Assembly (NCBI GenBank): GCA_030950365.1
Contig: JAUZRQ010000001.1
Coordinates: 1 to 64,000 of the forward strand
Direction: 5' to 3'
Length of the DNA stretch: 64,000 bases
Source of the DNA: Candidatus Zhuqueibacterota bacterium
Lineage (GTDB): Bacteria > Zhuqueibacterota > Zhuqueibacteria > Zhuqueibacterales > Geothermadaptataceae
Part shown: piece by piece, positions 10,864 through 62,292 of the stretch
Layout: the number at the start of each line of letters is the position of its first letter
Position numbering within the stretch: position 1 is the stretch's first letter
Position numbers and translations under genes: made by a program
Notes under the pieces: model-generated
The model's database searches: none
What the model was told of the DNA's origin: nothing
What the model saw: only the letters and a program-made list of their open reading frames with translations

Positions 10864-12273
10864 ATGGATAAGAAACATCGAGTTTTGATCGTGGATGATG
10901 AACCTCTCATTTTGGATCTTTTGAAAGAGACGCTGAAACGACGCTCGTTTGACGTGAATTTGGTGGACAGGGGGAAAGTTGCGTTAAAAACACTGGAATC
11001 GAGCCATTTTGATTTAATTATCACCGACGTTAAGCTGCCCGATGTGAATGGGATGGATATTTTGCGGCGGGCTAAAAAATTGCCGGATAGTCCGGGTGTG
11101 ATTATGATCACTGCCTATGGTACTATCAAGCACGCCGTGGAGGCGATGAAAGAGGGGGCTTTCGATTATATCACCAAGCCGTTCGAAATTGATGAGCTGG
11201 AAATCACTCTGGACCGGTTTTTTCGCGTGAAACGGCTTGAGCGCGAGGTTGATGTGCTTCGTCGGCACATTCAAGATGAATTTTCGCTGGAAGGAATCAT
11301 TGGTAAAAGCGCAGTCATGCAGCAAGTATTTGAGGCCATTCAGATGGTAGCTGGGACCAACAGCACAGTCCTCATCCGCGGTGAAAGTGGTACCGGCAAG
11401 GAAATGGTGGCCCGGGCGATTCATGCGCTGAGTCCTCGTAAAAAAGGCCCCTTCGTGCGCATGAACTGCGCTGCCCTGCCAGAAACTTTGGTGGATACAG
11501 AGCTATTCGGGCATGAAAAAGGTGCTTTCACAGGGGCCGTGGGCAGAAAGGATGGCCGCTTCAAAGCCGCGCACAAAGGCACTATCCTACTGGATGAAAT
11601 CTCGGAAATGGGTTTTCACCTCCAGGCTAAACTCCTGCGTGTGTTGCAGGAAAAGGAAGTGGCGCCGATTGGCAGCAACAAAACCGAACGTGTGGACGTG
11701 CGTATTCTGGCTACCACGAATCAGCCTCTGGAAGAGTGGGTTAAGCAAGGTAAATTCCGCGAGGACCTGTTTTACCGCCTGAACGTGGTGCCAATTATTC
11801 TGCCTCCTCTGCGCGACCGTAAAGAGGATATTCCGCTGCTAGTACAGCATTTTGTGGAAAAAATCTGTGCTATTAATGGACTACCCAAAAAGGAGATCGA
11901 TAAGGACGTTTACAAATTGCTACAGGAATATGATTGGCCGGGCAACATCCGGCAGCTCGAAAATGCGATCGAACGGGCACTGGTTATCAACAAAGGGGAT
12001 GTGCTGATGCCTGGCCATTTTTGGTTTCTTAAGAAAGAAATGCAAAAAATCGCCGGTCCCACGGCGAATTGCAAGCTGGCAGGAGTCAACCTGCGAGAAC
12101 TGGAAAAAAAAGCAATTTTAGATACTTTAGCCAAAAACAGAGGCAACCGTACTAAAACGGCGCAGGAACTGGGGATCAGCGTGCGCACTCTGCGCAACAA
12201 ACTTAAGGAATACCGGGAAAATAACGAAGTGCCTGAAGAATATATTATCTGGGTATATGAGTCTAAAGATTAA
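10864..12273 (+). CDS. Sigma-54 dependent response regulator (FlrC/FleR-like)
   Basis: NtrC-family activator, 469 residues, that would drive sigma-54 flagellar promoters. Receiver domain at residues about 5-120 with the acidic pair VDDE, phospho-acceptor Asp in LIITDVKLP, and Lys in ITKPFE. AAA+ domain with Walker A GESGTGKE (near residue 172), the sigma-54 contact loop GAFTGA (near 220), Walker B LLDEISEM, and an R-finger region. A Fis-type helix-turn-helix ends the protein (KTAQELGISVRTLRNKLKEY). A strong GAGGAGAGGG ribosome site precedes the ATG. The four sigma-54 promoters in this window are its likely targets. A strong terminator follows. Confidence 0.93.
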   Translation: MDKKHRVLIVDDEPLILDLLKETLKRRSFDVNLVDRGKVALKTLESSHFDLIITDVKLPDVNGMDILRRAKKLPDSPGVIMITAYGTIKHAVEAMKEGAFDYITKPFEIDELEITLDRFFRVKRLEREVDVLRRHIQDEFSLEGIIGKSAVMQQVFEAIQMVAGTNSTVLIRGESGTGKEMVARAIHALSPRKKGPFVRMNCAALPETLVDTELFGHEKGAFTGAVGRKDGRFKAAHKGTILLDEISEMGFHLQAKLLRVLQEKEVAPIGSNKTERVDVRILATTNQPLEEWVKQGKFREDLFYRLNVVPIILPPLRDRKEDIPLLVQHFVEKICAINGLPKKEIDKDVYKLLQEYDWPGNIRQLENAIERALVINKGDVLMPGHFWFLKKEMQKIAGPTANCKLAGVNLRELEKKAILDTLAKNRGNRTKTAQELGISVRTLRNKLKEYRENNEVPEEYIIWVYESKD

Positions 12274-12308: not shown

Positions 12309-12348
12309 AGAGGCTTCGTTGTATCCTAAACGAGGCCTCTTTTTTTTT
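12309..12348 (+). terminator. Rho-independent terminator after the sigma-54 activator
   Basis: Arms 12309-12320 and 12329-12340 pair over 12 positions with one mismatch, with an 8-base loop, followed by eight T at 12341-12348. Confidence 0.9.
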
Positions 12349-12366: not shown

Positions 12367-12393
12367 TAAAGAGAATGTCATAATAGCCGAATG
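12367..12393 (+). promoter_or_regulatory. Sigma-28 (FliA) type promoter
   Basis: TAAAGAGA at 12367-12374, 11 bases, then GCCGAATG at 12386-12393; the TAAAG and GCCGA cores and the spacing fit the TAAAGTTT-N11-GCCGATAA consensus. It lies about 50 bases before the response-regulator gene and after a terminator, so it is the likely promoter for the following four genes. FliA is encoded at 42812. Confidence 0.65.
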
Positions 12394-12441: not shown

Positions 12442-13362
12442 ATGGCACTTGAAGAACCAACCACAAAATCCATTGCTGAAAAAACGATAGACACGCAAGC
12501 TGAAGGCTCTAAGAATGAAGAGACGGAAAATGATGAGTCACAAGCTCAGGGTGACGTGTCGCAAAAGCATGAAGAGGGAGGAAATTCAGCAGATAGTAAT
12601 AGTATAAAAAAAGAAGATATCGATAAGTGGAAAATTAAGAAAATCCTGTTGATTGAGGATGATCTCGTTACACAAAGATTGATTTCGACAATTCTCAGCA
12701 AAAAGGGATACGATGTCAAGGTTGCCGAAAATGGGCAGATCGCTTTGCAGAAATTGAAATCATTCGACCCCGATTTATTCATCATGGATTTAAATATGCC
12801 GATCATGGATGGGACGGAATTGCTTAAACATCTTCGCAAAGAAAAAAAATATTTATTAAAACCAATCATTGTATTGACGTCGCAGCGGGATAAAGATTCG
12901 ATTGTAAAGGTAGCAACATACGGAATCGATAGCTACATGGCTAAGCCAGTGAAATTGGATTTGCTCGATCAAAAATTGGCAGAGTTTAGTCGCCCGGAGA
13001 CGATAATAAAACGGTTGGTAAACCTCAAAAAATTGATTGGTCGTCAAATCAATCGAATTGACGCGCAGAAAAAAAGTCTGAAAGCTCAGCTTCGTGTAAA
13101 ACAAGAAGAATGGGGAGAGGAGGAAAAACAGTTGTTGGCTAGAATAGCCCGTTTGAAAAACGCTCCTAAAAATCCTGTAAATACCATACGTCTCAAAGAT
13201 TTGAAAAGTAAACTTGCCAAAGAAAAATTAGCCTATCAGACCTGGCAACAGCAAATGAATCATGCATTGCAAAAGTTAAAAGATGAAAAAAAACGACTTG
13301 ATGAAGATTTGAAAAATGTCACCGAAATGCTGGACACCCTAAATCAAGGTCAAGCGAAATAG
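12442..13362 (+). CDS. Response regulator with acidic N-terminus and C-terminal coiled coil
   Basis: 306 residues in three parts. Residues 1-65 are acidic and low in hydrophobics, probably disordered. Residues about 66-185 are a receiver domain: KILLIEDD, phospho-acceptor Asp in FIMDLNMPIMDG, Thr/Ser in IVLTSQ, Lys in YMAKPVKLD. Residues about 186-306 are Lys/Glu-rich heptad-type sequence forming a long coiled coil. There is no DNA-binding or enzyme output domain. The output is thus likely by protein contact. First gene behind a sigma-28-like promoter; 8 bases before the HEAT gene. Codons are visibly A+T-rich compared with the genes at 1-8.7 kb. Confidence 0.8.
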   Translation: MALEEPTTKSIAEKTIDTQAEGSKNEETENDESQAQGDVSQKHEEGGNSADSNSIKKEDIDKWKIKKILLIEDDLVTQRLISTILSKKGYDVKVAENGQIALQKLKSFDPDLFIMDLNMPIMDGTELLKHLRKEKKYLLKPIIVLTSQRDKDSIVKVATYGIDSYMAKPVKLDLLDQKLAEFSRPETIIKRLVNLKKLIGRQINRIDAQKKSLKAQLRVKQEEWGEEEKQLLARIARLKNAPKNPVNTIRLKDLKSKLAKEKLAYQTWQQQMNHALQKLKDEKKRLDEDLKNVTEMLDTLNQGQAK

Positions 13363-13370
13363 ATAAGTCG

Positions 13371-15323
13371 ATGATTCTTTCTAAACAAAATCATGAAGAT
13401 GATATTACAAAGCAACATTTAAATGCTATTCGACAAGCAAAATCCACCATTGAAAAGCAAAACGCCCTACAGGATTTATTGCAATGTTATGGTGAAGATA
13501 GCGCAGCATTGCTTGTAACTTTGCTGGAAGATAGGGATGATGAAATAAGATCTATTGCTTTTCATGGTCTAAGTTTGGTGCCTTCCGAGAAATCGGCTGT
13601 TCTTCTCGCCACTTTCCTCGCTCATACAGATCTTCATGTTAGAAATCTTGTTGCAGAATTGCTTGTTCAATACAAAGCCATGGCTGTGCCAGCGTTACTT
13701 CGTTGTCTAAGCAACCCTAATAAAAAGGTGCGCAAGTTTGCCATTGATATACTCGGCCTCATTGGCGACCTAACAGTCACACCTGAGCTGGCAATATTGC
13801 TTGATAAAGAACAAGAGCCCATTGTTCAAGTGGCGATAGCAGAAGCGTTGGGAAACTTAAGGGCAGCGGAAGCTGTTGAGCTGCTAATGAGGCATATAGA
13901 CAGCTGTCCGGGAATGGCGCCGGTTGTTATTGATGCTTTGGGAAAGATAAATACCCAAAAATCTATCGGTTTTTTGCTTGAGGTGCTACAGAGAAACGAT
14001 TTCTATTTATCACTTTTTAGTCTCGAAGCGTTATCAAACGCATTCTATCCTGAGATCATTGATACTTTAGTAGAGAGGTACAAACGGATTCATCCTGAAT
14101 TGAAGACAAATTTTTTTAAAACCCTTTGTTCGATTTACCAAAAGTTGGATCCACCTCCAGCATCGAAGATTAACTTCTATCGCTTCAAAGATGATATTCT
14201 AAAAATCTTAAAGGAAACCGAAAATATTCAAGTGTTTTCTTCAATTTTTAACTCCTTGCCGGACGATTTTATTATTAAGATGTTTGTTCAGGTCTTGGAG
14301 TTATTGAATCACCAGAATCAAGATATTAATTATTTTGTCATTGAACGCTTAAAGCGGTTAGATAAAACCGAAATTCTAATTAAGCTTGATCAATACCTTG
14401 ATAGTATTTCAGCCCGTGGACATTTGGCCTTACTGAATTTGATTGGGGATTGCGATCTCGTTTGCGCGGAAAACATATTAAAAAAATTGGGTAATTCTCC
14501 AATTCCGGAGATTCGAAGAGTTGTGGCAGAAGTAGCGTCTGTATTTAATGGGGCTGAATTTGACTATATACTAATCCAGTTGGCTAACGATTCCGTTCAA
14601 TTAGTGAGGGAATCGGCCTACTTAGCCTTATCAGACCGTGCTTATTATGACCTCATTCCCATATTTGAAAAAGGCTTAGAAAGCCAGGTTCATAGCATCT
14701 TTCAAGTGAGTTTACATACCCTCGCCAGGCTAAGTCCAGGACTATTATACAATCATTTAGAAAAATGGCTTTCGGTAAATGATGGTGAACGACTTTTAAT
14801 GTTTCTCTCCTATATGCCTGAGAATTTCTTTCTTTCTAAACCCTTTTTAAAAACCCTTTTAGAGCATGTGAATATGAAAATTCGTATGTATGCCATACAT
14901 GCTTTTGAAACCATTAGTGAAGAGGTTGTACAGGATTGGATTGCAGCAGGGCAAGAGGATAAGCATCCAGATGTTCGCTTAGTTGCTCTCCGTGCTCAAA
15001 TTCGACAAAATGCGGCACGTGCAAAAGTGGCCATCTCCAGGGCATTGGACGACCAAGATTGTAGAATACAAGAGGTTGCTCTTGAAGCTACCAAACAGCT
15101 TTGTTTAACGGAAATGCTCCCCCAAATATATTCGCTACTCGGTTCATCCGATCGAAAAGTTCAGCTGAAAGCAGTGCAAGTGATTCAAGAATTGGGAGGG
15201 GCTAAAGGGATAACCAAAGCCAGGGAGCGTCTTTATAATTATGGCGAGAATGCAGATAACATCATTTCACTTGCCACTGACCAAAATTTATTTTCAGTAT
15301 TAAATCCGGATGAGGCCCAATGA
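13371..15323 (+). CDS. HEAT-repeat protein, 650 residues
   Basis: A long alpha-solenoid of HEAT-like repeats over nearly the whole length; repeats are clearest at residues about 50-200 (LVTLLEDRDDEIRSIAFHGL, LLRCLSNPNKKVRKFAIDIL) and again near 500-620 (LLGSSDRKVQLKAVQVIQEL). No enzyme motif, signal peptide or membrane segment. Such solenoids act as protein scaffolds. It lies between a receiver-coiled coil protein and a CheY-like protein with near-zero spacing, so a scaffold for signalling proteins is plausible, but this is inference. A+T-rich codon use like its neighbours. Weak ribosome binding site at the start. Confidence 0.8.
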   Translation: MILSKQNHEDDITKQHLNAIRQAKSTIEKQNALQDLLQCYGEDSAALLVTLLEDRDDEIRSIAFHGLSLVPSEKSAVLLATFLAHTDLHVRNLVAELLVQYKAMAVPALLRCLSNPNKKVRKFAIDILGLIGDLTVTPELAILLDKEQEPIVQVAIAEALGNLRAAEAVELLMRHIDSCPGMAPVVIDALGKINTQKSIGFLLEVLQRNDFYLSLFSLEALSNAFYPEIIDTLVERYKRIHPELKTNFFKTLCSIYQKLDPPPASKINFYRFKDDILKILKETENIQVFSSIFNSLPDDFIIKMFVQVLELLNHQNQDINYFVIERLKRLDKTEILIKLDQYLDSISARGHLALLNLIGDCDLVCAENILKKLGNSPIPEIRRVVAEVASVFNGAEFDYILIQLANDSVQLVRESAYLALSDRAYYDLIPIFEKGLESQVHSIFQVSLHTLARLSPGLLYNHLEKWLSVNDGERLLMFLSYMPENFFLSKPFLKTLLEHVNMKIRMYAIHAFETISEEVVQDWIAAGQEDKHPDVRLVALRAQIRQNAARAKVAISRALDDQDCRIQEVALEATKQLCLTEMLPQIYSLLGSSDRKVQLKAVQVIQELGGAKGITKARERLYNYGENADNIISLATDQNLFSVLNPDEAQ

Positions 15324-15327
15324 AACC

Positions 15328-15714
15328 ATGCAAAAAACGATTCTAATTGTCGATGACTCGGCCACAATTCGAAAATTGGTACGCCTGGTGATTGAATCGA
15401 TGGGCCACCATACAATCGAAGCGTCGGATGGCTTAGAGGCTTTATCAATACTTACTCATACCCGGTTAGATATGCTTATCACTAACCTGAATATGCCGAA
15501 TCTTGATGGTTTTCAACTTATTCAACAGGTACGTAAAAAATATCATAAACAAAATTTGCCTATTCTTATTTTAAGCAGTGAAGAGGAGCCTGAAATAGTT
15601 GAAAGGGGGTTTAACGCTGGGGCTAATGTCTATCTTTATAAACCTCTAATTCCGTGGCAGTTGCGACAGGAAATGAATAAAATTTTTACACAAGCGAAGT
15701 TAGGCCGTGATTGA
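15328..15714 (+). CDS. CheY-like single receiver protein lacking the phospho-acceptor Asp
   Basis: A stand-alone receiver domain of 128 residues with strong CheY likeness: acidic pair Asp9-Asp10 in LIVDDSATIRKLV, ITNLNMPNLDGFQL, and Lys in LYKPL. The position of Asp57 of E. coli CheY is Asn here (Asn53, codon AAC at 15484-15486), so ordinary acyl-phosphate formation is not expected. The ATG at 15328 is chosen just after the HEAT gene stop; another in-frame ATG at 15310 overlaps that gene. Next gene is a CheZ-like phosphatase. It may be a constitutive or decoy CheY. Confidence 0.85.
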   Translation: MQKTILIVDDSATIRKLVRLVIESMGHHTIEASDGLEALSILTHTRLDMLITNLNMPNLDGFQLIQQVRKKYHKQNLPILILSSEEEPEIVERGFNAGANVYLYKPLIPWQLRQEMNKIFTQAKLGRD

Positions 15715-15765
15715 AACATTGCAACTCCCCTGGGCTAATCTATTTATTAATTAGGGAAGACTATC

Positions 15766-16650
15766 ATGAGCCAAATAGATCTACAGAAAATATTAAATCA
15801 AATTGAGGAAATTCAAGCACTTTTTGTATTTGTTCAACGTGTGATTCCTTATCTTGAGGAAATAATTCGATTTGTTCAAGAAACAACACCATTGATGGAA
15901 GAAGTCAGCCAAAGTATTTTGGAATCTTCCAAAAAAATGCCAACAGCCGTGGCTGAACTGGATAAAGTATCTTCAACCACTGAAAGTGCGGCTTCCGATA
16001 TGCTTGACGGCATTGAACGTATGTTAGATACAATTAATAATTCCATAAGCTTGATTGACCAAATCAATGAATTTGAAAAAGAACGACTCATGAAAGAAAA
16101 AGCGCTTGTACTTAAATTGGCGGAGACTCTGGATGGCATTGAAGAAACACAGGCGGCCAATGTCAAACAAGCACTCGATGATTTTTATGAAGAATATCTG
16201 GCCAAAAACTGCTTGCAAAAATTGCGTCAAAATATCTTTTGTTTACAAAATGATGCTTACGAAATTATGAATTCATTGCAAATTCAGGATATCACCACGC
16301 AACAAATTATGGCTGCTAATGATCTCATCGAATCTGTACAATCAAAGTTGGTCGCGCTTACCAATCGTCTATCTTTTCTTTTCTCAGCGTCTTTTAATGT
16401 AGATTCCAGCCAAGTGAAGATTCCTGCCTCTATGAGTTTTAATACAATGCATTCCATTCAAGATATTAACAATGATGCTCCTGGGAAAACTGTGGAGACT
16501 CATGATTCGGAGGTCAGTACAAATGAGCATCCGAATGTCGATAAAATTATAAAGCCTGCAGAAAATTCAACGTGCCCGGTAATCGTCACGAAAGAGAAAC
16601 AGAGAACCAATGATGTGAATATTGAACAAGATCATTTTTTGCAGGAATAA
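15766..16650 (+). CDS. cheZ: CheZ-like phosphatase
   Basis: Helical protein of 294 residues. The diagnostic segment is SLQIQDITTQQIMAAN, matching the CheZ active-site signature (Asp and Gln four residues apart in QDLTGQVI); here they are Asp175 and Gln179. The long N-terminal helical hairpin fits the CheZ four-helix bundle, and the acidic, low-complexity tail (about 210-294) fits the flexible CheY-binding tail, although a clear conserved C-terminal peptide is not seen. It would dephosphorylate CheY-P in the chemotaxis output. AGGGAAG ribosome site before the ATG. Last gene of the A+T-rich block. The CheZ call is good but the sequence is divergent. Confidence 0.7.
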   Translation: MSQIDLQKILNQIEEIQALFVFVQRVIPYLEEIIRFVQETTPLMEEVSQSILESSKKMPTAVAELDKVSSTTESAASDMLDGIERMLDTINNSISLIDQINEFEKERLMKEKALVLKLAETLDGIEETQAANVKQALDDFYEEYLAKNCLQKLRQNIFCLQNDAYEIMNSLQIQDITTQQIMAANDLIESVQSKLVALTNRLSFLFSASFNVDSSQVKIPASMSFNTMHSIQDINNDAPGKTVETHDSEVSTNEHPNVDKIIKPAENSTCPVIVTKEKQRTNDVNIEQDHFLQE

Positions 16651-16661
16651 CCACTGCAAAA
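16637..16661 (+). repeat. Hairpin over the end of the CheZ-like gene
   Basis: TTTTGCAG (16637-16644) and CTGCAAAA (16654-16661) are perfect arms with a 9-base loop that contains the stop codon. No T run follows directly, so termination is possible but weak. Confidence 0.35.
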
Positions 16662-17003
16662 CAATTTGATGGTGTTGTAGATAGAAATAGGCAGCTTGCT
16701 TTTGGACGGTTTTCAAAGATGATGTTGACCGTTTTGCATGTCGAAAAATGGGAACTGGCAGGAAAATTCAACCGCCCCGGGGCAACTCCTTCCCCCTTCT
16801 CCCTCATCTCTTCTCCCTATTTTCTTAACAATTTAAATTATGGCCAGAATTTCATAAAAGTGAACCCGAAGTCATCTTTTTTTTAGAACTCAATGGTCTG
16901 CTAAGCGAGTTATTCTTATTGAATTGAGCCGTTAAAAAATTGTCATTTGCTTAAGCTAATAAGCTAAGTTTTAAGTGCAAGCCCTCTTGCGAAAATTCTC
17001 CGT
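16651..17003. other. Intergenic region before the flgB operon
   Basis: About 350 bases without a gene. It starts with the hairpin described separately, has a pyrimidine-rich stretch near 16787-16827, and ends at the sigma-54 promoter. No other promoter could be supported. Confidence 0.6.
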
Positions 17004-17019
17004 TGGCATGCAGCTTGCA
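17004..17019 (+). promoter_or_regulatory. Sigma-54 promoter for the flgB operon
   Basis: TGGCATGCAGCTTGCA has GG at 17005-17006 and GC at 17017-17018, exact 10-base spacing. Transcription would start near 17030, giving a very short leader to the ribosome site of flgB. Confidence 0.85.
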
Positions 17020-17050
17020 ATTTGCCAACCTGAATAATCAGGAGGGTGTC

Positions 17051-17467
17051 ATGCTATTAAAAGGACTTTTTAAGCATACGAAAATTCCGCTTTTGAGCAA
17101 ATCGCTCCGGGCTTCTGCCATTAGACAGCGGGTTATTGCCAATAATATTGCCAATTCAACAACCCTCGGGTATCGCCGATTGGATGTACGTTTTGAGGAA
17201 GATCTTCAAAAAGCGTTACGAAGAAAGAAAATCGATGGTTCTATGAGCCATCAAAAGCATATTCCAGTTGGTGGCCCCTCGGTGAGTCGAATCGAGCCGA
17301 AAGTTTATCGTATCGATGATGCGACGAATCCCAGTGGAGTTAACAATGTAGATATTGAGTTCGAGATGGCGCAACTTGCCAAAAATCAGATGCTGTATAT
17401 TGCAGCGGCAAAATTTGCCGCCGGCAACTTTGCTAAAATTAAAATGGCTATTCGGGGACGAGCATAA
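17051..17467 (+). CDS. flgB: Flagellar proximal rod protein FlgB
   Basis: Rod subunit next to the MS-ring, exported through the flagellar gate. The N-terminal helix carries the rod/hook-family motif RVIANNIANSTTLGYRR, and the C-terminus has MAQLAKNQMLYIAAAKFA, both typical of FlgB. 138 residues. The start at 17051 follows AGGAGG (17040-17045); an in-frame ATG at 17003 lies before this and adds a non-conserved lead. First gene of a long operon; 46 bases before flgC. Confidence 0.93.
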   Translation: MLLKGLFKHTKIPLLSKSLRASAIRQRVIANNIANSTTLGYRRLDVRFEEDLQKALRRKKIDGSMSHQKHIPVGGPSVSRIEPKVYRIDDATNPSGVNNVDIEFEMAQLAKNQMLYIAAAKFAAGNFAKIKMAIRGRA

Positions 17468-32560: not shown

Positions 32561-33553
32561 ATGGCAGAGATTCTGTCGCAAAGCGAAATTGATGCGCTAC
32601 TTTCGGATATCGAAGCCGGAGACGAACTTGCGGTTTTAGAAACCACTTCCAGCAAGAAGAAGCAGGTCAGTGTTTACGATTTTCGCCATCCCAAAATCGT
32701 TTCCAAGGAACATCTGCGCATTTTACAGATGATTCATGAGCGCTTTGCCAAGCTCGTAGAATCCTATTTGACCACAAGGCTGCGAGCGCTGGTCGATGCC
32801 AAGCTCATCGCCGTTGATCAGGTGACTTATTCGGAATTTATGCTTTCCATGAGCGATCCGAGCTGCATTTACATTATGAAACTGGAAAACCTGAACGGCG
32901 ATGCCATTTTGGAAATAACGTTGCCACTGGTGTTTTACATTATCGATCGGCTATTTGGCGGTGAAGGTAATAGTATCGATAAAATGCGAGAAATGACGCT
33001 CATCGAACAAAAGGTGATCGAAAAGGTAGCTGCTCAGTTTTCGGATGCCTTGAATACGGCGTGGAAGCAGGTGATTCCACTGGATAGCAGTATTGAGGCA
33101 TATCAAAGCCGTCCCAGTTTTATTCAGATCGCCGCGCTGGAAGAAATGGTGATTTCGATTTCGTTGGAAATCAATGTTCAGGAAACCACCGGTTTTCTGA
33201 ATTTATGTTTTCCATTTCAGGTGCTCGAAGAAGTACTGCCACAAATGACCTCGCAGCAGATGGTGCGTTCACGCATTAAAAAGTCTCCAGATGACAAGGA
33301 GGTAATCCATTCTCGCATTGTGAAGGCAAACATTCCGGTGCATGTGGAACTGGGCCGGAAGCAAATCACCTTGCGCGAGCTGGTGCAACTGGAGGTCGGC
33401 GATGTACTGAAATTGGACACGCGGGTGACAGACGATCTGCCGATTTTTATTAACAATATTGAGCGATTTCGTGGGAAGCCTGGTTTGTATCGTGATAGAG
33501 TTGCTCTTAAAATAGTGGGCGTCGAAAAAGAACAAATTGAAATTCTGGATTAG
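32561..33553 (+). CDS. fliM: Flagellar motor switch protein FliM
   Basis: C-ring protein, 330 residues, with CheY-P binding N-terminal motif ILSQSEIDALLSDI, the middle CheC-like domain (MSDPSCIYIMKLENLNGDAI) and a C-terminal SpoA surface with LGRKQITLRELVQLEVGDVL. All FliM parts are present, so it can respond to phosphorylated CheY. 15 bases after fliL. Confidence 0.95.
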   Translation: MAEILSQSEIDALLSDIEAGDELAVLETTSSKKKQVSVYDFRHPKIVSKEHLRILQMIHERFAKLVESYLTTRLRALVDAKLIAVDQVTYSEFMLSMSDPSCIYIMKLENLNGDAILEITLPLVFYIIDRLFGGEGNSIDKMREMTLIEQKVIEKVAAQFSDALNTAWKQVIPLDSSIEAYQSRPSFIQIAALEEMVISISLEINVQETTGFLNLCFPFQVLEEVLPQMTSQQMVRSRIKKSPDDKEVIHSRIVKANIPVHVELGRKQITLRELVQLEVGDVLKLDTRVTDDLPIFINNIERFRGKPGLYRDRVALKIVGVEKEQIEILD

Positions 33554-47634: not shown

Positions 47635-48168
47635 ATGGATCGTATTCAGGTGATTCGTGAACGGCTCGAGGAGCGCCGCGAGCGCTTCGGACAGCGTGAA
47701 ATGGACCATTTGTTGAACGAAGGATTTTCCGAATGTTTGAGTGCGCTTGCCGAGCAAGTGGAGTTTGAAGCAGCCACTCTGTACCTGATCTTGCGAGGCT
47801 CGAAAATGCTGCATCGCGTGGCCGATTACAACGGCGGCGTTAATTTCATCGATCGCGTACGATTTGATCATGGCTATGGGCTGTCGGCCTGGGTGGCACA
47901 GAAACAGCGTCCGATCTACTTGCCGGATATTCACCGCGGCAGCCGGCATGGTCACAAGCCTATTCGCTCGTATCTGTCGCTGCCGATCATTTTGCACGAT
48001 GAGCTTGTGGGAGTCATCAATTTTGCCCATACAAAACCTCATGCCTTTGAACGCACGGAAATGCTGTTGATTCGCAAGTTTATCGAGAATTTGAAACCGA
48101 TTATCAAAATTTTCTACCGATATCACGGCACACTTCGCTATGAAGAAAAAGATTTTGATCGTCGATGA
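47635..48168 (+). CDS. GAF-domain protein
   Basis: 177 residues, single GAF domain (about 35-170), with DHGYGLSAWVAQKQRPIYLP, RSYLSLPIILHDELVGVINF typical of the fold. No phosphatase or cyclase output domain, so it is a stand-alone sensor or a scaffold. Overlaps the next gene by 29 bases. GTAGGAG ribosome site. Confidence 0.85.
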   Translation: MDRIQVIRERLEERRERFGQREMDHLLNEGFSECLSALAEQVEFEAATLYLILRGSKMLHRVADYNGGVNFIDRVRFDHGYGLSAWVAQKQRPIYLPDIHRGSRHGHKPIRSYLSLPIILHDELVGVINFAHTKPHAFERTEMLLIRKFIENLKPIIKIFYRYHGTLRYEEKDFDRR

Positions 48169-49207
48169 TGACCTCAATCAACACAAGATCAATCAATTTT
48201 ATTTTAAGAAGCACGGTTTCGACGTCGTTTCGGCCTTTACGGGGGAAGATGGACTGGAGAAAATCTTGACCGAACGCCCGGCGCTCGTGCTGCTGGATTT
48301 CATGATGCCCGGCATGAATGGCGAACAATTTCTGCACATCCTGTGGAATGATCCGAAATATCAGCCTGTTGGCCGCACGCCGGTGGTGATGCTGACAGCC
48401 GCCGGTCACGAACGCGATTTTGTGGAAAAGCTAATGGACAGGGGGCTCGCCGCTTACCTGCAGAAACCCTTCGGCGAGCATGAGCTGATTAACGTGGTTG
48501 AGAATGTGCTGGTCAACCACGAAAAATACATGCACCAGGAGCAAAGTCTCGAGCATCTGCGCGAGAGTCTGGACTTTCTCAGCAATATTTTGCAAAATTT
48601 TCCAGGCATCATTTTCACAACCTCACTTGATGGTCGGATATCGTTTTTCACCGAGGGCAGCAATCCCATGCTGGAAACGCCCAAATCCAGTATCCTCGGA
48701 CGATTGCTTTTCGACTTTTTTGAAATCCAGCCACACGATTTGCAATCCATTTTATCCCGCCTCAAGGAAGACAACACGGCGATCACGATCGAAACCATTC
48801 TCAAGGATCATGGCGCCCATTCCTTCCCGGTCGAGCTGTCGCTATCGATATTCCGGGATAAAAACGGCCAGATCGCCGGAATCCTTGGTCTGGTCAAGGA
48901 CCTCACCCTGGTGAAAAAGCTGGAGCAGGAGAAGATCGAAAAAGAGCGGATTGCGGCGATTGTGCAGGCCATGGCCACGGTGAATCACGAAATCAACAAT
49001 CCGCTGACGCCCATCCTCGGGAATCTCGATCTGATTATGGAAGAGGCGCACCTGCTGCCAGACTCGGTGCGTTCCAAACTGAAGAGCATTCAGGAAAACG
49101 CGCGCCGCATTGCCGAAAATGTCCAGAAAATGCGCAACATTTCACAGCCCGTGTTCAAGCAGTATTATGACGGAGAGATGATCATCGACCTCGAAAAATC
49201 GCGTTGA
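48140..49207 (+). CDS. REC-PAS-DHp protein without catalytic ATPase domain
   Basis: 355 residues. Receiver domain at 1-120 (LIVDDDLNQHKINQFYF, Asp in VLLDFMMPGMNG), a PAS domain (about 145-265) and a histidine-kinase dimerisation/phosphotransfer helix pair with TVNHEINNPLTPILGN (His283). The reading frame ends right after the helix pair; no HATPase follows, and the downstream bases are the sigma-54 promoter of flgF. It cannot phosphorylate itself by the usual route. It may act as a phosphotransfer protein or as a partner of the RsbW-like ATPase encoded just upstream. Overlaps the GAF gene by 29 bases. Confidence 0.8.
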   Translation: MKKKILIVDDDLNQHKINQFYFKKHGFDVVSAFTGEDGLEKILTERPALVLLDFMMPGMNGEQFLHILWNDPKYQPVGRTPVVMLTAAGHERDFVEKLMDRGLAAYLQKPFGEHELINVVENVLVNHEKYMHQEQSLEHLRESLDFLSNILQNFPGIIFTTSLDGRISFFTEGSNPMLETPKSSILGRLLFDFFEIQPHDLQSILSRLKEDNTAITIETILKDHGAHSFPVELSLSIFRDKNGQIAGILGLVKDLTLVKKLEQEKIEKERIAAIVQAMATVNHEINNPLTPILGNLDLIMEEAHLLPDSVRSKLKSIQENARRIAENVQKMRNISQPVFKQYYDGEMIIDLEKSR

Positions 49208-58339: not shown

Positions 58340-58587
58340 GTTTGCATTTATGATTCACCTTCGCTCTATGTCCCTATCTATCCGCTTTTTTTCTTACTAA
58401 ATTCTTCAATGAGTGTATAGGTTCCATACCGCAATTCCGTCTGACAATCCCATTTTAATTTTATCGACAAAAATTAAACTCTCTTAATACCTTTGGGTTC
58501 TTTTGCCGACTTTCCGAAAATGTACTGAGAGCGACAAACCAGAAAAGTCCTTTTTTGAGTCAGATATCCAATCCCCAAACAAAATCC
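58340..58587. other. Gap between csrA and the glycan genes
   Basis: About 250 bases, A+T-rich, without a gene. No clear promoter; the following gene starts with a weak ribosome site. Confidence 0.5.
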
Positions 58588-61500
58588 ATGAACCTCCAAC
58601 AGGAAATCCATTTAGCTGAAAAATTGTTCGAACAGGGCGATATTGCGAGTGCGCGCAAGCGGCTGGAGGCCCTGCAACGCCGGCATCCGTCCAATGCCGA
58701 GGTGCTGAACAATCTGGCTGTTATCGCGCAGGCCGAGGGCGACACCAACACCGCCCTACAGCTCCTGTGGAAAGCCTGGCAACATGATGCCGGCCATGCG
58801 GATGTGCAAAACAATCTGCTAACCGTGCTGATCGGCCAGGAAAAATGGGCGGCTATGGTGGCTTTGTGCGGCTTTTATTTGCGCCTACAATCAAAGCTGG
58901 CGAAACGGCCGCAGACCTGGCAAGACGCCCTGGAAACCGTCGTCCGGCAATGGATTTTGCATTATCTGGAGCACCCGGAGGCCGGATTCTGGCACGATCA
59001 TAAGGAGATGCCGGTTGCCCTAAAAAAGACGCTTGCCCAAAACGAGATCGGTCCGAAAAATCCAAAAGCTTTCTGGCAAACCCTGGCCGCCGCCATGACT
59101 GCGGTCGCGCTACACGCACAGACCGGGAAGGCGAGGCGGTGGCTGCTAAAGAATCCGCCTGGCGAGGCGCACAAACCGCTCTGGCAAGCTGTGCTGGCGG
59201 TACTCTGGTTGCTCGATTTCCGCGTGTATGAGGCCATCCATTTTGCAGAACCGCTGTTGGCAAAGCCGGAGACTCGGGATCTTGGGCAGGCGATGATGGA
59301 TCGCGCGAGGCAAATGGAACCGCGGCCCGAGGTAGATCAGGCGTATCGACGCTTGCTAGTGGTCATGGAAGAGGGCATCGGCAATATGGTGATGATGACG
59401 CCGACCCTGCGGGCACTGCGACAACGGTTTCCCGAAAGCCACATCGCCGTGATGGGCAAAAAGCCGAGCACCGATATCCTGACCGATCTGAATTGCGTGG
59501 ATGAAGTCCTGCACGGCTGGCAGGATGAGCGGTTCGATCTGGCACTCTGCGGCGTATGGAGTTCACAGATGCGACAGAGGTTTCAGCGGAAGTTTGACGA
59601 AAACGTGGAATTTGTGTACGCCGCTGACCTGCGCGTGGGGCTCGAGCACGAGGCCGAGGCCAATTTTAAGCTGGCGCGTTTTTTAGGCTATCGCGGCGAA
59701 ATGCCCATGCCTTCGGTCACCGTACGTAAACCCGACTTAAATGTGAAACTCAAAAAGCCGGTGGCGGTACTGGCCAATGCCTCGCAGGGCAATGGCGGCT
59801 GGGAGCGCAAGCGATGGCCGCACTATCGCGAGCTGGCGAAACGGCTGATGCAGAAGGGGTACACCGTGGTGGCTGTGGGGGGCATAGAGGAGGCGGAACG
59901 CTTTGGAGCGGATTACTGGCCGGCCGGCGTGATCGACTTGCAGGGACGGTTGAGCCTGCCCGAGACGGCCTGGGTGCTGCAAAAGGCCGACCTGTTTATC
60001 GGCAATGACAGTGCGCCCGCGCATCTGGCTGCGGCAGTGGGCACGTCGACGTTCGTGCTGTTTGGCGCCACGCTTATCACGAAAAACCGACCGCTGGGCA
60101 AAAACGTGCGCGTACTCACCCGCGATTTGGCCTGCAGCCCGTGCCAGTACACCGAACGCTGGCAAACCTGCCAGGACTGGCAGTGCATGATAGCCATGTC
60201 CCCGGAGTGGGTGCTGCAGGAAGTCGAGCGCGGCATCGAAACGCCGCGGCTGATGTTGGTGCGCAAGGACTACCGCGACCTGCGTCTGATTCGCCGGGAA
60301 GATGGGCTGATCCTGAGCGATGGCCAGCATGAGGAGCGGCTGGTGGTGCACCTGGTGGGCAAGGGCAAAACCAACTTTCCCTGGGGCATGGAAATCGAGG
60401 TGCAGCGTGTTCTGGAACAGATGGGCTGCGAGGTGTTCCACACCGATTATGTGGCCGACCGGCACGATTTCAAATACAAATTTCTGCGGCCGGCCCATTT
60501 GATGCTGGTGTTCCGGGGTAGCGGTATTCCGCCAGAGCTGATTCAGCAGGCAAGCTGCCGTACGGTGCTCTGGTATCAAGACGATGTGTTCTCTACCCGG
60601 CACGCACCGCGCGACCTGGCCTACAACGGGCGATTCTTCGATGCCGTGTACACCTTTGATTACAACGCCATCGACGCCTACCGTGAGTTCGGCATCCAGA
60701 AGGTGGACTGGTTGCCACTGGCCGCCGCGCCGGAAATTTATCACAAACAGTTCCTCGAGAAAAAATACGATGTGGTTTTCGTGGGAAATTTATATCCCAA
60801 TCGTAAGACGCTGGTTGAACGGCTATCAAAAAAGTTCGATGTGAAGGTATTTCAGGCTTATAACGAAGAAGCGGCCCAGATTTACAACCAGAGCAAAATC
60901 GTTCTCAATCTGGGCATCGGCCGCACGGGCATCCAGCAGCGCGTGTTTGAGGTGCTGCTTTGCGGTGCGTTTTTAATGACCAACGAGATCCCTAAAGAAG
61001 GCCGGCTGTTCGAGGACCGCAAGCATCTGGTGTATTTCAACGAAAACAACATCGAGGAACTGATTGCTTATTATCTCGAACACGAGGACGAGCGCGAACG
61101 CATCGCCGAAAACGGCTACCGGCTGGCTATGCAGAAACACACCTACCGCAACCGGCTGGAAAAGCTACTGCGCGATCAATTCGTGTTTGAAGAAGAAAGT
61201 GGGACTCGCTGGAATGAGCGGCGGCCGACTATCCAGGTGCGCGAGGCCATTCCGGGATTCCGTCCGGTAAACGTCGAGCGCATCCGGCAGCGGTTGCAAT
61301 CGCGCGAGCTGCGCATTTTTGCCGCCTTCCGCAATTTCAACTGGGAAAACCCCAATTTGCAGCCGGCGCTGGAATCTTTCGGCGCGGTGATTCGCTATGA
61401 CTGGCATGAGCATGGCTTCTCGCAATACGACCCGGGATGGCACGAATCGCGCAAGGCGCGCATGAACCAGCAACTGCTGGAAGCCGTGTCGCAGGCGCAT

Positions 61501-62292
61501 CAGCAGGCCTCCATCGACATCTTTTTCGGCTATCTCTCGGGTCGGCTGATTTTCCCAGGCATGCTGCAGGCCATCCGGCGGATGGGCATCCTATCCCTCA
61601 ACATTTATCTCGATGATGTCAAAGGCTTTTGGGGCAATCTGGAACCGACCGGGTTTTCCAGCATGATTGATATCGCCAATGGCTTCGATTTGTGCTGGAC
61701 CACGCACGAGCCGGCGGTGGCCTGGTATGAGGCCATGGGCGGACGGGCGATTTTTTTACCGCCGGGCGCCAATCCAGAGATTTTTCGGCCCATCGAAGGC
61801 ATCGAGAAAGACATCGATGTGGTGTTCGTCGGGCAGAAATACGGTCGCCGCGGCGAGATGATCGAGCGCCTGCGCGCCCTGGGCATCGATGCCCGTGGCT
61901 TTGGCCGCGGCTGGGATACCGGTGAGGTCTCGCAGGAAACCATGATCGAACTGTTCAGCCGCGCCCGAATCGTGCTGGGCATGGCCGAAACACCGGAAGA
62001 CCATGTAACCGAGCTGCAGATCAAAGGGCGCGATTTTGAAGTGCCTATGTGCGGTGCGCTGTATTTGACCCAGCACAATCCGGCGTTGCAGCCATTCTTC
62101 CGGTTTGGCGAAGAAATAGATACGTACCGCGACCAACATGAATTGATCAGCAAAGTGAGGTACTACCTGAGTCATCCTGAGCATGCCGAGCAGATCCGAC
62201 GGAAAGCCCGCCGGCGTAGTTTACGCGATCACACGTGGGAAGCGCGATTTCAGACGGCGTTCGAAGCGCTTTTGAATGCGGTATCGGAATAG
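58588..62292 (+). CDS. Giant multi-domain glycosyltransferase (TPR-GT9-CgeB-CgeB)
   Basis: 1234 residues with at least four parts. Residues 1-85: TPR-like repeats ([20 protein letters not shown]). Residues about 250-545: heptosyltransferase (GT9) fold with [20 protein letters not shown] and [17 protein letters not shown]. Residues about 585-870 and about 905-1234: two glycosyltransferases of the CgeB/spore-protein type ([20 protein letters not shown] and [20 protein letters not shown], each followed by an acceptor-side Glyco_trans_1_2 motif with [12 protein letters not shown] or [12 protein letters not shown]). No membrane segment. Together with gmd and the aminotransferase it suggests glycan assembly on the flagellin or surface polymers. 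The ATG at 58588 is preferred; an in-frame TTG at 58555 has no support. Confidence 0.8.

Follow-up and report, generated by a model that had tools for sequence, protein, structure and literature searches.

A reduced flagellar chemotaxis operon that keeps a HEAT-repeat gene and a CheY with asparagine at the phospho-acceptor position in a genus of Zhuqueibacterota

What kind of gene set lies in front of flgB in the genome of a Candidatus Zhuqueibacterota bacterium (assembly GCA_030950365.1)? The stretch analyzed, referred to here as the window, comprises positions 1 to 64,000 of contig JAUZRQ010000001.1 (64 kb). It contains a block of four genes encoding a receiver domain with a coiled-coil tail, a HEAT-repeat solenoid, a CheY-like protein (CheY1) with asparagine in place of the phospho-acceptor aspartate, and a CheZ-like protein. 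All four run in the same direction, separated by short gaps or overlapping slightly, and the list of open reading frames (ORFs) and Pfam searches placed all four domains where a first-pass annotation of the sequence had put them. That annotation proposed a new four-gene chemotaxis-output module, which was not borne out. Instead, the block was inherited vertically and derives, by reduction in one deep-branching genus, from a complete operon for flagellar chemotaxis, (CheW-)HEAT-CheR-CheY1-CheY2-CheZ-CheA-CheB.

The spread of the parent operon was followed with a CheZ alignment: run against about 85,000 genome representatives, it gave 80 loci (L055-L134), whose genes were annotated by homology. 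An earlier scan with HEAT alone had given no match; the loci are therefore CheZ-selected and not a census, and the counts reported here show conservation of gene order, not frequency in nature. A HEAT gene was present upstream in 66 of the 80 loci, from several phyla. The order HEAT-CheR-CheY1-CheY2-CheZ-CheA was observed in every locus having all six genes (63/63), with a median gap of 14 bp between HEAT and CheR. Source assemblies included Ignavibacteria, Melioribacteraceae, Kapaibacteria, Kryptonia, Rhodothermales, Calditrichota, and KSB1, and 30 loci with the ordered operon also have a same-strand flgB in their flank. The suggestion that HEAT belongs with CheY and CheZ is borne out by the 66 loci, and the opposite case, in which no other genome would keep HEAT beside these genes, fails outright. 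Because the order is the same in all 63 six-gene loci, HEAT is best described as a standard, apparently undescribed part of the operon; a search of the open literature, with subscription papers outside its coverage, found no account of a HEAT-CheR-CheY-CheY-CheZ-CheA operon. Two Kapaibacteria-type genomes have a split operon, with a FapA-like beta-solenoid gene separating CheW from HEAT (L139 2861-3751, L140 2840-3769).

Comparison with related genomes showed what was removed from the locus and what was added. The place upstream of flgB is occupied by CheW-HEAT-CheR-CheY1-CheY2-CheZ-CheA-CheB in two genomes (G002, G004) and by the same series without an adjacent CheW in two others (G003, G005). 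The sister species of the window's genus (G001, locus L060, a candidate division KSB1 metagenome assembly) has the order regulator, receiver-coiled coil, HEAT, CheY1-Asn, CheY2, CheZ, flgB. In the window, a HEAT ortholog still precedes CheY1 and CheZ on the same strand near flagellar genes, the order seen in the Ignavibacteria/Kapaibacteria/Calditrichota-KSB1 operon, which often lies beside flgB-flgC-fliE-fliF-fliG. Unlike that operon, the window locus is without CheW, CheR, CheA, CheB, and CheY2, carries an added receiver-coiled coil gene, and has an Asn CheY1 and a CheZ without a docking tail. The window's genus has lost CheW, CheR, CheA, and CheB from the locus and the phosphorylatable Asp from CheY1, and the window species has also lost CheY2 there. 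CheR, CheA, CheB, and CheY2 are all present elsewhere in the window genome; no pseudogenes of cheA, cheB, cheR, or cheW were detected near the block by tblastn (only receiver-domain cross-hits elsewhere).

These comparisons bear directly on the four-gene module, in which a HEAT scaffold would gather CheY-like proteins of both kinds, active and inactive, close to the switch. The four genes share a sigma-28-type promoter and a direction and have been kept together in both genomes of the genus, which speaks for such a module. The set is, however, derived from a full che operon, canonical CheY2 stands as a fifth gene between CheY-N and CheZ in the sister species, and the joint complex is putative. 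The dead CheY and the receiver-coiled coil protein were both confined to one genus among the genomes examined. A new module is thus a highly improbable explanation.

The expected sigma-28-type promoter was confirmed. The exact motif TAAA-N15-GCCGA occurs once in the window, about 50 bases 5' of the first block gene, and the sister genome keeps the site with its flanking letters in the corresponding position (TAAAGAGAAT...GCCGAAAGTTTTATTGAA versus TAAAGAGAAT...GCCGAATGTTTTATTGAA) and has a similar terminator-like hairpin upstream of its block. A similar sigma-28-type site precedes cheW in G002. The block had also been described as A+T-rich. The bias is real, with G+C content at third codon positions (GC3) of 0.33-0.39 in the block genes versus 0.54 in the upstream regulator, but it is a trait of the window genome, as the sister-species block (0.45-0.54) is not biased. 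The block is therefore not an island: horizontal acquisition is ruled out by the same neighbors (the NtrC-type regulator and flgB) in sister genomes and by the confinement of low GC to the window genome. Coordinates of the block and its flanks are given in Table 1.

Table 1. Features of the four-gene block and its surroundings in the 64-kb window.
Feature	Position	Strand	Remarks
Sigma-54 NtrC-type flagellar regulator, upstream of block	10864..12273	+	Located alike in sister genomes (57-93% identity)
Intrinsic-terminator-like hairpin GAGGC...GCCTC followed by T9, closing upstream regulator gene	12310..12348	+	Read from sequence
Sigma-28-type promoter TAAA-N15-GCCGAATG	12367..12393	+	Motif search, sister conservation
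Receiver + coiled-coil gene	12442..13362	+	306 aa; position held by cheW in sister genera
HEAT-repeat solenoid gene	13371..15323	+	650 aa; ortholog of flagellar che operon HEAT
CheY1 ortholog (pseudo-receiver)	15310..15714	+	Overlaps HEAT gene
AAC codon = Asn at CheY1 phospho-acceptor position	15484..15486	+	Read from sequence
CheZ-like phosphatase (putative)	15766..16650	+	294 aa
Gap at cheA/cheB place of sister genera	16651..17050	+	tblastn, no remnant
flgB, first of conserved flgB-flgC-fliE-fliF-fliG run after block	17003..17467	+	ORF list, Pfam, synteny
FliM with intact N-terminal CheY-binding peptide ILSQSEIDALLS	32561..33553	+	Motor could still accept canonical CheY-P

Elsewhere the window encodes a sigma-28-like sigma factor, MotA, MotB, FliM, and FliN. 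Downstream of the flagellar genes, a 1245-aa multi-domain glycosyltransferase with TPR repeats (58555-62292) is possibly involved in flagellin glycosylation. A 355-aa Receiver-PAS-HisKA protein is encoded at 48140-49207; no ATPase domain was recognized in it.

The first gene of the block encodes a receiver (Pfam Response_reg, E=3e-26, residues 68-179) flanked by a low-complexity N-terminal tail and a helical, coiled-coil C-terminal tail. Its phospho-acceptor is intact (FIMDLNMP). The sole full-length relative was found in the sister species, and none in other genera of the family. The gene is a gain of the window's genus at the first position of the locus.

The HEAT protein (Pfam HEAT_2, E=2e-34) was predicted as a single continuous alpha-solenoid with a mean predicted local distance difference test score (pLDDT) of 92 in single-chain structure prediction. 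The widely conserved core comprises the first ~240 residues (RNLAxEIL, DxRKFxIDILG, NVxxAxxEALG). The window's family has full-length relatives in further genomes, and the protein there is 620-650 aa long; across the loci it is usually 400-490 aa. A fold search with the predicted model returned only generic HEAT solenoids (importins, SF3b, the PP2A A subunit) and thus gave no hint of function. A scaffold role is plausible, if putative.

CheY1 is recognized as a receiver (Pfam Response_reg, E=2e-25), and judged by its orthologs its start may be the ATG at 15328. Its acceptor motif reads LITNLNMP, and the acid-pocket aspartates, the Ser/Thr, and the Lys are kept. The phospho-acceptor Asp was found in 72 of 73 CheY1 copies of the CheZ-selected loci, the exception being the sister species, which also has Asn. 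In the tree the two Asn proteins form a clade (support 96/94) inside the CheY1 clade (100/100), on terminal branches of 0.70-0.74 versus 0.03-0.14 for other CheY1s of the family. The window protein has the receiver fold of a single-domain CheY without its acceptor Asp, and belongs with the pseudo-receivers (PsR), recognized receivers that lack a residue required for phosphotransfer. It resembles bacterial PsR domains in having a receiver fold without a catalytic residue, here the phospho-acceptor; in PsR domains the Asp is commonly replaced by Glu (PMC12632262), whereas the window protein has Asn and an otherwise intact active site. It has been reported that Leu at the K+2 position favors active conformations (PMC12632262). 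This residue is Leu in the window CheY1, consistent with a phosphorylation-independent role, though it is Phe in the sister.

The CheZ-like protein scored below the Pfam cut-off for CheZ (21.1 bits, E=3e-4; cut-off 30.7), and the assignment is backed by synteny with CheZ of sister genomes. Its catalytic motif is kept (D175-x3-Q179), and D-x3-Q was present in all loci (80/80). A family profile search of the PDB gave E. coli CheZ (1kmi) as the top match (E=4e-4), and the predicted model is a long helical hairpin (pLDDT about 80-90 over residues 10-200) that gave no significant Foldseek match. The catalytic motif is common to both proteins, and so, if the prediction holds, is a long helical hairpin; relative to 1kmi, the window CheZ is longer and is without the C-terminal CheY-docking peptide. 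This peptide (consensus SQDEIDKLF) is xQxEIDxLF-like in nearly all loci, where it resembles the N-terminus of FliM, and is degenerate in the window (TNDVNIEQDHFLQE). The shared peptide also resembles the CheY-binding tail of E. coli CheZ. Frameshift or truncation was ruled out as the cause of the loss, as none of the other frames across 16400-17003 contains the missing peptide. A single CheZ is present in each of five sister genomes; the window genome alone has a second, on another contig (C6), which keeps the peptide. Tail loss as a rule for duplicated CheZ was rejected: three loci (L108, L109, L119) have two tandem CheZ-like genes per operon and the usual docking peptide in neither, and therefore give no such rule. 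CheZ-like proteins of 446 and 522 aa were also found in L061 and L062 (Glassbacteria, Gemmatimonadales), with no other che gene recognized nearby.

A second, complete chemotaxis cluster was identified on contig C6 of the window genome (L039 2881-14660). Here CheY2-CheZ stand in front, followed by a methyl-accepting chemotaxis protein (MCP) and CheW-CheB-HEAT-CheR-CheY-CheA; a 513-aa ORF with three CheW domains is also present, and a TAAA-N15-TCCGATAA site precedes cheY2. The HEAT gene of this cluster (237 aa, before CheR) has the same conserved core and is a true paralog. CheY2 on C6 is 79% identical to CheY2 of the sister species, and FliM has kept its N-terminal CheY-binding peptide, so that the motor could still take canonical CheY-P. 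For these reasons, signaling from CheA through CheY2 to FliM is probably intact in the window genome but run from C6.

The genes that have stayed at the flagellar locus point to a link between HEAT and CheY1. CheY1 was present in every HEAT-positive CheZ locus. Six che loci with enough upstream sequence have no HEAT in place. For four of these (L097, L099, L120, L126), whole-genome searches found HEAT elsewhere in the genome; in L097, CheW-HEAT-CheR-CheY1 form a separate group away from CheY2-CheZ-CheA-CheB. A joint absence of HEAT and CheY1 is real only for L090 and L096, where whole-genome search found no convincing HEAT and no clear CheY1, and CheR, CheY2, CheZ, CheA, and CheB are kept. Together with the window's genus, which keeps both genes while CheR, CheA, CheB, and CheW leave, these two genomes tie HEAT more closely to CheY1 than to CheR, although the independent events are few.

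The best overall explanation, to which we assign a probability of roughly 0.45, is a reduced che operon in which HEAT and CheY1 would form a phosphorylation-independent output or localization module, with phosphate signaling supplied from C6. In the parent system, the HEAT scaffold would anchor CheY1 (a non-motor receiver), and possibly also CheR, to the signaling complex or motor, and CheY2 would carry the phosphoryl signal to FliM. In the window's genus, CheA of C6 would drive CheY2 and CheZ, and hence the flagellum. The leftover HEAT-CheY1 pair would persist in a constitutively bound state, act without phosphorylation, and probably place or bias the switch. The receiver-coiled coil protein, as the only block member that could still be phosphorylated, may be the remaining phosphate-responsive input, and the block CheZ may act on other receivers. 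The products would be made together with the flagellum from the sigma-28-type promoter.

Several points weigh against this explanation. The interactions and the joint role of the block proteins are inferred from the genes, and the window's genus is represented by only two genomes, both incomplete. CheY1 is in the operon in L120 and L126 with HEAT elsewhere in the genome. HEAT adjoins CheR in nearly all loci, nearer than CheY1, which would allow CheR or the array to be the real partner. HEAT would then serve mainly adaptation or array placement, would still serve the C6 array, and its neighborhood with CheY1-N would be incidental. The position of HEAT directly upstream of CheR, repeated on C6 (HEAT237-CheR-CheY-CheA), speaks for this alternative. 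Against it, HEAT has been kept without CheR at the flagellar locus of the window's genus, C6 has its own HEAT, and CheR persists in L090 and L096 with HEAT and CheY1 both missing. We consider a CheR or array partnership quite unlikely as the main role.

Rates of evolution also weigh against the phosphorylation-independent module and bring in its main rival, decay of a redundant copy. Identities between the two species of the window's genus are 35% for HEAT, 48% for CheY1, and 51% for CheZ, as compared to 72, 88, and 71% within a sister genus (g2), despite similar FlgB identity (75% versus 79%). The nonsynonymous distance (dN) of HEAT is 0.66 versus 0.20 in g2, and dN of the three genes is ~2-6x higher than in g2 at similar flagellar divergence, which is also consistent with fading constraint. 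HEAT, CheY1, and CheZ at the flagellar locus would then be remnants under relaxed selection after the function moved, with Asn and the lost CheZ tail as steps of decay; the low GC3 in the window genome only, and a tailless CheZ where a second copy keeps the tail, agree with this. The proportion of nonsynonymous differences (pN) in the four block genes is, however, 0.32-0.44 and that of synonymous differences (pS) 0.76-0.85. Since pN is well below pS and all four frames, 650 HEAT codons included, remain intact in both species although synonymous distance is saturated, the genes are under selection. The promoter and the catalytic residues of CheZ are conserved, two CheY1s of only 48% identity share the Asn, and a new gene, the receiver-coiled coil, has been added and conserved. 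Decay is a rather unlikely account of the locus.

HEAT proteins in chemotaxis are not wholly new, since two precedents exist. In Halobacterium salinarum, the HEAT protein OE2401F interacts with CheD and OE2402F (CheF) and is essential for chemotaxis and switching (PMC2666748). Like the window HEAT, it is coded between che and motility genes; its setting is an archaeal motor with CheF as partner and no FliM, and the likeness between the proteins is the HEAT repeats. In Myxococcus xanthus, the HEAT-repeat protein Cpc7 of the Che7 system is reported to bind the single-domain CheY7 (PMC11514114, citing Darnell et al., 2014). The window, too, has a HEAT gene beside that of a single-domain CheY; the Myxococcus pair is described as a regulator of development, not of flagella (PMC11514114). 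Neither is a bacterial flagellar operon of the HEAT-CheR-CheY-CheY-CheZ-CheA kind.

HEAT as a standing part of an operon in several phyla is a more interesting finding than the window block itself. A broader proposal, which is possible but doubtful, is that the HEAT solenoid is a core flagellar chemotaxis part in several phyla of the Bacteroidetes/Chlorobi/Calditrichota region and an obligate scaffold of a second, non-motor CheY. In the window's genus, cut off from its own kinase, the solenoid would live on beside a CheY that can no longer be phosphorylated and would regulate the switch, or its placement, independently of phosphate. The genus serves as a natural experiment. Its locus has shed the genes for kinase, adaptation, and coupling but kept HEAT and CheY1, with the phosphorylation site dropped, which points to a role needing no phosphate. 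If the link between HEAT and CheY1 is true, the two-CheY operon design would gain a directly testable partner protein, and both Cpc7-CheY7 and the HEAT protein that is essential for switching in haloarchaea would have a bacterial counterpart in a flagellar setting. Flagellar chemotaxis of several little-studied phyla would then have a fixed extra component that is absent from the E. coli and Bacillus models.

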